Part shown: positions 26,780-27,242 of the stretch, one piece after another
Layout: every line of letters begins with the position of its first letter
Numbering within the stretch: position 1 is the stretch's first letter
Source of the DNA: Nothopassalora personata
Lineage: Eukaryota > Ascomycota > Dothideomycetes > Mycosphaerellales > Mycosphaerellaceae
Direction: 5' to 3'
Length of the DNA: 64,000 bases
NCBI GenBank assembly: GCA_033816765.1
Contig: CM066288.1
Coordinates: forward strand, 806,001 to 870,000
Translations under genes and position numbers: made by a program
The notes under the pieces: generated by a model
The model's input: the letters and a program-made list of their open reading frames with translations, nothing else
Told to the model about the DNA's origin: nothing
The model's database searches: none

Positions 26780-26804
26780 AAAAAGAAAATCACTCGTTGA
26801 GTGA
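26780..26804 (-). terminator. Hairpin plus T-runs downstream of tRNA-iMet
   Basis: Read on the minus strand, six bases after the tRNA 3' end lies a perfect 6-bp hairpin (TCACTC AAC GAGTGA), directly followed by TTTTCTTTTT. Runs of four and five T are standard RNA polymerase III stop signals. No T4 run occurs anywhere in the 256-bp interrupted tRNA gene itself, so this is the first one a polymerase III would meet. Confidence 0.6.
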
Positions 26805-26831
26805 ATTGTGTAGCTTCGGGTGGTTTCGATC

Positions 26832-26883
26832 CTGATACTGTCAACATACACTCACTATCTTGAATTGGGCTAGTTAGTCTTAC
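26832..26883 (-). other. Spliceosomal-type intron 4 in tRNA-iMet (T stem, inside B box)
   Basis: 52 nt, donor GTAAGA, acceptor TATCAG; a TGTTGAC near the 3' end could serve as branch site. It splits the T stem GGTG/G. The last intron base is G, so genomic DNA still reads GGATCGAAACC, a complete B box. Confidence 0.75.
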
Positions 26884-26934
26884 CACCGTCCTCCGGGTCA
26901 CGTAATTTCCACATGATAGGGATATGAGCCCGGC

Positions 26935-26990
26935 CTGCATGACCTGTTAGAGTTTGTGAATGGTGACCCTTTGCTGCGGTAGTTACTTAC
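26935..26990 (-). other. Spliceosomal-type intron 2 in tRNA-iMet (end of D stem)
   Basis: 56 nt, perfect donor GTAAGT, acceptor CATGCAG, branch-like CTCTAAC about 12 nt before the end. It lies between the D stem (GAAGCGC) and base 26. Confidence 0.8.
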
Positions 26991-27000
26991 GCGCTTCCGC

Positions 27001-27052
27001 CTGCAAAGTTATTAATACGACTACCAGGAAGAATCCCGACGATGTGACTCAC
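27001..27052 (-). other. Spliceosomal-type intron 1 in tRNA-iMet (D loop, inside A box)
   Basis: 52 nt, donor GTGAGT, acceptor TTTGCAG, with a branch-like TATTAATAAC 6-15 nt before the acceptor. It interrupts the D loop after TGGCGCA. The bases GTGAG that start the intron leave the genomic A box nearly intact (TGGCGCAGTGAG). Confidence 0.8.
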
Positions 27053-27066
27053 TGCGCCACAAAGCT

Positions 27067-27242
27067 GGCAGACTACACCATTGGTGCGTCTTTTTGACGA
27101 GGGTGGCACAATCTTAATTGATTATATCTGCACTTAAAATCTACAGGAGCTATGGCCTTCTACATACAATCCTAGCAATCGTGCGTCACTCTTCTATTCA
27201 TGCGTATGGCATTACCCAGCACTACATTTTCATCACTGTCCT
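27067..27242. promoter_or_regulatory. Spacer between LysM gene stop and tRNA-iMet
   Basis: 176 bp on the shared minus strand between the stop of the RING-like/LysM gene and the tRNA 5' end. It contains an AT-rich TATA-like stretch (minus strand GATATAATCAATTAAG, ~55-70 bp before the tRNA). It could hold the gene's own start site or be the 3' UTR of the upstream mRNA; sequence alone cannot decide. Confidence 0.4.

Follow-up and report, generated by a model that had tools for sequence, protein, structure and literature searches.

We report that a minus-strand locus of Nothopassalora personata, within a window of 64 kb (the whole stretch of DNA analysed; contig 2, 806001-870000), is very probably a five-exon initiator tRNA-Met gene, where the spliceosome is predicted to act at three GT...AG introns and the tRNA endonuclease together with a ligase likely at a fourth intron at position 37/38; we put the probability of this reading at roughly 0.86. 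Moreover, our search of the assembly (54.5 Mb, 40 contigs) makes it likely that spliceosomal introns have spread through the entire set of nuclear tRNA genes and that decoding as well as translation initiation would hang on the spliceosome. Specifically, every initiator, Leu, Ile, Val, Asn, Asp, Pro, Ser and Trp gene found would need the spliceosome and, except one, also the tRNA endonuclease; one intron interrupts an anticodon, another precedes the final two bases of a tRNA, and one U6 gene is interrupted too.

The initiator tRNA-Met gene of the window

Five exons on the minus strand, from 27066 to 26811, join into a perfect 72-nt initiator tRNA. Exon 1 (27053..27066, 14 nt) provides the acceptor 5' strand, bases 8-9, the D stem 5' strand and A14, and is followed by GT...AG intron 1 (27001..27052, 52 nt, donor GTGAGT), which lies in the D loop after mature nucleotide 14. 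The remaining D loop and the D stem 3' strand come from exon 2 (26991..27000, 10 nt), and GT...AG intron 2 (26935..26990, 56 nt, donor GTAAGT, with a CTAAC branch-like site) separates the D stem from base 26. Exon 3 (26923..26934, 12 nt) comprises base 26, the anticodon stem 5' strand and the loop through A37 with the anticodon CAT, and ends at the tRNA-type intron at 37/38 (26899..26922, 24 nt), the ends of which are not GT...AG. Exon 4 (26884..26898, 15 nt) holds A38, the anticodon stem 3' strand, the variable loop and T stem bases 1-4; GT...AG intron 3 (26832..26883, 52 nt, donor GTAAGA) falls within the T stem 5' strand, after mature nucleotide 51, and exon 5 (26811..26831, 21 nt) completes that strand and adds the T loop ATCGAAA, the T stem and acceptor 3' strands and A73. 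These five exons and four interruptions agree to the base with those described in an earlier note on this DNA. Its description of a flawless 72-nt initiator with a CAT anticodon is likewise borne out: the cloverleaf is fully paired (21/21, one pair being of the G-U type), the features of a cytosolic initiator tRNA-Met are present (A1:T72, T loop ATCGAAA, anticodon CAT and a full cloverleaf), and the joined 72 nt are named tRNA-Met(CAT) by ARAGORN. From the unspliced 256 nt of the gene ARAGORN gave no tRNA, and no tRNA was reported in the window by ARAGORN or by Rfam at the gathering cut-off. Standard tRNA finders can overlook or misname such genes, as ARAGORN on the window gene illustrates.

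The gene models were obtained by a beam search in which the cloverleaf is grown outward from the T loop, with GT...AG introns allowed anywhere plus one free 37/38 intron, and in which pairs, consensus bases, donor, branch site and acceptor contribute to the score. On the window locus this search returned exactly the model of the earlier note with a score of 55.8, the next solution scoring 42.5. The best scores on Markov-1 shuffles of the DNA examined were 14.3 (587 anchors), 6.5 (534) and 8.3 (553) for the final search version, and 9.5 (first search version), 10.7 and 8.6 in earlier runs.

The window also holds genes with the Pfam names aminopeptidase P, class-III aminotransferase, family 2 glycosyl hydrolase and thaumatin-like protein, and an Spb1 gene (844 aa). 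Its identity to the Spb1 of Fulvia fulva, the tomato leaf-mould fungus, is 93%, and 76-77% to the Spb1 of the next named species, Zasmidium cellare and Lecanosticta acicola; a position near Fulvia within the Mycosphaerellaceae is therefore most likely.

Interrupted tRNA genes in the assembly and the search for an intact initiator

The genome was scanned with T-arm and D-arm patterns and the matching regions were scored by the cloverleaf search. Five patterns matched 11, 104, 33, 110 and 46 places, against 2, 183, 31, 33 and 63 for the respective reversed-pattern controls; since several arm patterns were not enriched over control, genes were identified by cloverleaf score. For the 33-place pattern 32 places were examined and gave 17 tRNA genes, for the 104- and 110-place patterns 11 and 7 well-paired places among the matches listed gave four, and for the 46-place pattern 28 places in 27 regions gave another four, the paired places on contig 17 being left out; a further 20 of 78 paired repeat-like places among the listed matches of the 110-place pattern gave no tRNA gene. 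In addition, a search with the initiator 3' exon yielded a second initiator gene, and a D-arm search yielded Ala-TGC and Trp-CCA. For Arg-TCG, Leu-CAG and Leu-CAA the introns chosen by the program gave a poor stem or loop, and these three models were adjusted by hand; the program's own scores for them in its last run were 42.4, 38.2 and 41.5, respectively. The 29 genes resolved are a sample and not the genome total of tRNA genes; split T loops are under-represented among them because sampling was mostly by contiguous T arms, and the Cys, Gln, Glu, His, Lys, Phe and Thr isotypes were not found among the 29.

None of the 29 nuclear tRNA genes resolved is uninterrupted (0/29). An intron at 37/38, 11-58 nt long, is present in 28, and 18 (both initiators and 16 of the 27 others) carry GT...AG introns, 39 altogether, which means that 39 of the 67 interruptions across the resolved genes bear spliceosomal marks. 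Seventeen of these 18 genes also have a 37/38 intron, and so would need both splicing systems. Four GT...AG introns were placed in Leu-CAG and in Pro-CGG, three in each of the two initiator genes and in Leu-CAA, Leu-AAG and Ser-TGA, two in Asn-GTT, Arg-TCG, each of two Ile-AAT genes and one of two Val-AAC genes, and one in the other Val-AAC gene, in Val-CAC, in each of two Asp-GTC genes and in Ala-TGC and Trp-CCA, the last two having been found by their D arms and also having a 37/38 intron. Eleven genes, i.e. Tyr-GTA, Gly-CCC, five Gly-GCC, Arg-TCT, Ala-AGC, Ala-CGC and elongator Met, have the 37/38 intron only. One intron of Leu-CAA follows base 34 and lies within the anticodon, so that the exon between it and the 37/38 intron is 3 nt long, and one intron of Pro-CGG is placed two bases short of the end.

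For two genes another identity was rejected: L064 is not Glu-TTC, ARAGORN reading it as Val-CAC, and L047 is not a Ser gene, as it reads Leu-CAA. Several further candidates were set aside. Left out of the 29, with scores above 14, were repeats and likely relatives (L061, L076 on its minus strand, L107, L108 and L112), mitochondrial or mitochondrial-like loci (L002, L003 and L122), L100 with two tRNA-like stretches, L115 with T33 missing or a faulty T stem, L062 (about 15.0-18.0, no cloverleaf with a sound stem), and L110 and L116 with scores of 15-16. L115 (contig 4, near 1803542, minus strand) is tRNA-like with T5 downstream and is perhaps another interrupted tRNA. L107, L108 and L112 belong to another repeat, in which the D and T arms resemble those of a tRNA (GGGTTAGTGGTAACCC ... 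GCGAGTTCGAATCTCGT). A dispersed repeat with AGGTTCGA(G/C)TCCT (L133-L143 and L145-L152) has about 77 places among the listed matches of the 110-place pattern; 19 of 20 examined places are copies of one another, and it is distinct from the SINE-like family described below. Contig 17 (136 kb) is by its look likely mitochondrial; its places 1784 and 80247 hold the same tRNA-Lys with flanks in opposite orientation, and it may contain an inverted duplication.

The earlier note had raised the case that the window gene is the only initiator gene. This part does not stand, as a second gene lies on the minus strand of contig 6 (4340637-4340373); it is, however, also cut by three GT...AG introns, and has a 26-nt 37/38 intron. 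Since both initiator genes found carry GT...AG introns, the start of translation would require the spliceosome. The GT...AG introns of the contig 6 gene (56, 52 and 59 nt) follow mature nucleotides 17, 22 and 45 and those of the window gene nucleotides 14, 24 and 51, each of the six sites being empty in the other copy; as the six introns occupy six different positions, GT...AG introns were probably gained piecemeal. The two tRNAs differ by 10 substitutions, nine of them in stems; in four pairs both bases are changed, and 21/21 pairs form in each tRNA. The 74-nt exon sequence is identical in the two Val-AAC genes, and one of them has a 55-nt GT...AG intron in the D loop and a 25-nt 37/38 intron, both of which the other is without; at one variable-loop site both have an intron, the two being unlike in sequence. 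Among the five Gly-GCC genes the exons are identical, and the 37/38 intron differs from gene to gene. Judged from the sequences, such copy differences are the pattern expected of selection on the spliced tRNA, not of decay.

Several intact initiator genes, named in the earlier note as a sign that the window gene is a relic, were sought in four ways in the genome and none was seen. With the 21-nt initiator 3' exon, at up to 3 mismatches, the genome gave 2 places (control 1), namely the two known initiators only, and the intact 18-nt D arm, at up to 2 mismatches, gave 6 places (control 3), which included two other tRNAs and no initiator. The pattern GGATCGAAACCNNNC gave 5 places in the genome (control 1), the one in the window being the only tRNA; the second initiator is beyond the reach of this pattern, as the first base of its acceptor 3' strand differs. 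A DNA search with the spliced 72-nt initiator had no match in the genome at E up to 10; this search, which was run without a positive control, did not match even the window's own 21-nt exon and therefore excludes only long uninterrupted copies. The Rfam tRNA family gave 63 matches over the genome, 3 on contig 17 and 60 others, and no intact nuclear tRNA gene was found among the 27 of these 60 nuclear matches that were examined: by eye they resemble copies of one tRNA-derived SINE-like repeat, and they were therefore not counted as tRNA genes. This family (L005-L031) has many near-identical copies and some diverged ones, 24 of the 27 being called 'Pyl(cta)' by ARAGORN. The Rfam search is not exhaustive, because at least one mitochondrial tRNA reported by ARAGORN escaped it.

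These gaps in the Rfam and 72-nt searches, together with the seven isotypes absent from the sample, leave some room for the interrupted genes being relics, with the tRNAs made from intact genes that lie outside the assembly or were missed by the searches, as a copy of very different sequence might be. Against this, the exons are perfect and the stems covary between the initiator copies, the five Gly-GCC genes combine identical exons with different introns, no gene among the 29 is uninterrupted, and the 3'-exon and D-arm searches gave no further initiator; we consider it very unlikely that the genes are relics.

Two classes of introns

The 39 GT...AG introns in tRNA genes are 49-62 nt long (mean 53.2), the GT...AG ends in 39/39 being a requirement of the search. 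They have an extended donor, GTNNGT, with G+5 in 38/39 (24% in the control) and T+6 in 36/39, good donors having been favoured by the search, and a pyrimidine precedes the AG in 37/39. A CTRAY motif 8-40 nt from the 3' end is present in 35/39, compared with 12.4% of 25,556 control GT...AG segments, such sites likewise having been favoured, and 35 of 38 CTRAY motifs fall 9-14 nt from the intron end. Candidate protein-gene introns in the same DNA (n=14, their removal opening the frame on both sides) are 50-65 nt long with a mean of 55.6, which is a weak comparison as similar motifs and a length limit of 47-65 nt were used to select these 14. The 37/38 introns serve as an internal control, and 0/28 start with GT. 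In canonical tRNA introns base 32 pairs with an intron base near the 3' site; with the 37/38 introns, pairing of base 32 peaks at intron position -3 (18/28), seven other places tested giving 8 to 14 of 28. At the level of sequence the earlier interpretation of the window gene as having three mRNA-type introns and one tRNA-type intron is supported, 18 of 29 genes carrying GT...AG introns, and we infer that the GT...AG introns would be removed by the spliceosome.

Since the gene search demanded GT...AG ends (and favoured good donors and branch sites), it was rerun without any boundary preference. The same mature tRNA was then returned for 5 of 18 genes, and all of the junctions in those five (7/7) admit GT...AG; for the other 13, the window gene included, other solutions were returned, in some cases with junctions displaced by a few bases inside loops and in others very different. 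For the window gene, intron 1 moved a few bases to a placement that is not GT...AG, and introns 2 and 3 still admit GT...AG. Sliding junctions have up to six equivalent placements each, mostly one to three, with GT...AG among them by construction.

A different enzymology, in which a relaxed tRNA endonuclease removes all interruptions, GT...AG ones too, at bulge-helix-bulge folds, is suggested by Cyanidioschyzon merolae, where 34 of 43 nuclear tRNA genes are disrupted in a similar layout (PMC3978253). Here, however, GTNNGT donors, CTRAY motifs and YAG ends mark the 49-62 nt class, while the 37/38 introns lack an initial GT throughout, and four central-helix pairs at the GT...AG intron ends were found in 4/39, with 4.2 expected from shuffled ends (symmetric form, with a 4-bp central helix between two 3-nt bulges, three registers). 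Because the motif classes are separate and there is no symmetric central-helix excess, we regard removal of all introns by this route as highly improbable, and removal of the GT...AG introns by the spliceosome as the better reading.

TTTT occurs in 1/39 of the tRNA GT...AG introns, compared with 7.6 in shuffles. As 24 other candidate introns have no TTTT either, we rejected this depletion as a mark of Pol III.

Transcription, order of processing and related systems

The flanks of the 29 tRNA genes have a Pol III layout that may do without contiguous A and B boxes, similar to the one described for C. merolae (PMC3978253). T4 is present within 67 nt downstream of 29/29 genes (14.8% of 5,327 control places) and T5 within 60 nt downstream of 22/29 (control 2.3%), TATA lies at -90 to -20 in 24/29 (control 13.2%), and T5 inside the gene is found in 0/29, compared with 226/2,060 random windows. 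In the window gene, on the minus strand, a TATA element (27123..27126) precedes the first tRNA base by 60 nt and is a possible TFIIIB site, and TTTTCTTTTT (26780..26789), 21 nt past the tRNA 3' end, is a likely Pol III terminator. Contiguous A and B boxes are absent from this gene, with intron 1 after nucleotide 14 and intron 3 within the T stem, and introns split these boxes in several other genes as well.

Recruitment of the spliceosome is usually coupled to Pol II. This coupling and the split A and B boxes would fit a scheme in which the spliceosome acts on tRNA-containing Pol II transcripts and not on Pol III ones. The T-runs directly downstream of 29/29 genes and the TATA upstream of 24/29 argue against it, as does U6, which is made by Pol III and is spliced in Schizosaccharomyces pombe (PMC10484740); we hold a Pol II origin to be unlikely. 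In the assembly examined here, one U6 snRNA gene (L126; contig 6, about 4370220-4370480, plus strand, with approximate first-exon start and 3' end) contains two GT...AG introns, 51 and 53 nt long, and its joined exons match what we take to be canonical U6. A second U6-like gene (L125; contig 3, 3902167-3902266, plus strand) is uninterrupted and diverged, with an upstream TATA and T6 at its end; the Rfam U6 scores are 61.4 bits for L125 and 55.3 bits for L126.

The tRNA endonuclease measures from the folded mature domain of the tRNA. For Pol III transcripts we therefore envisage an order of events in which TFIIIB at the upstream TATA would recruit Pol III, this route being proposed because the A and B boxes are often split, and in which transcription would stop at the T-run. 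The spliceosome would then take out the GT...AG introns, whereby the D and T arms would be restored, and the tRNA endonuclease would cut out the 37/38 intron only after the GT...AG introns are gone, since it measures from the folded tRNA body.

Spliceosomal introns in tRNA genes are undescribed in the listed titles and abstract openings of the literature searched, which covers few subscription journals, and no case of a tRNA needing both machineries was found there; the earlier note likewise knew of none. To our knowledge, a tRNA that would need both splicing machines, and a gene set largely built in this way, are new. U6 snRNA genes with mRNA-type introns, regarded in that note as the nearest precedent, are in our view, together with the rRNA genes treated below, the nearest relatives: in S. 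pombe and other fungi an mRNA-type intron in U6, a Pol III RNA, is spliced out during maturation (PMC10484740). The likeness lies in the mRNA-type intron within a small structured Pol III RNA. U6 is, however, a component of the spliceosome, and its intron is attributed to reverse splicing near the catalytic site, whereas in the present genome tRNAs are the hosts, and a gene can carry as many as four mRNA-type introns plus a tRNA intron. In C. merolae the tRNA genes have as many as three introns, 11-69 bp in length, together with split A/B boxes, an upstream TATA and downstream T-stretches (PMC3978253). The two gene sets share that most nuclear tRNA genes are disrupted, often by several introns, and that the A/B boxes are split and TATA and a T-stretch are present. 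The C. merolae introns are, on the other hand, of the bulge-helix-bulge kind and removed by the tRNA endonuclease, while here the majority carry spliceosomal marks and a narrow length range.

Like canonical eukaryotic tRNA introns, those of the second class are located at 37/38 (28 of 29 genes); unlike them, they are present in nearly every sampled gene, initiator and Gly included. Nuclear rRNA genes of ascomycetes hold spliceosomal introns in a host made by Pol I. They are comparable in that spliceosomal introns reside in a non-coding RNA gene that is not transcribed by Pol II, and differ in the Pol I host, in that no tRNA is concerned and in that no second splicing machine is involved. Finally, recent gain of many spliceosomal introns through introner-like elements is described for F. 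fulva and relatives, which share the fungal family with the present species (PMC4457414). Introners are highly similar to one another, up to 99% identical in F. fulva (PMC4457414), whereas the matches listed among the 39 tRNA introns span 10-18 nt (E 0.004 and higher) and include no near-identical copies; an introner origin is possible for the clade and was not adopted for the tRNA introns.

Several questions thereby become testable. One is whether the spliceosome acts on Pol III RNAs other than U6; others concern the joining of exons of as little as 3-5 nt, the start of Pol III transcription where introns split the A and B boxes, and the route by which introns spread into genes that have no reading frame. 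Splicing of tRNA and splicing of mRNA are taught as separate systems. If our reading is true, a single tRNA precursor, transcribed by Pol III, would require the two of them one after the other in a set order.
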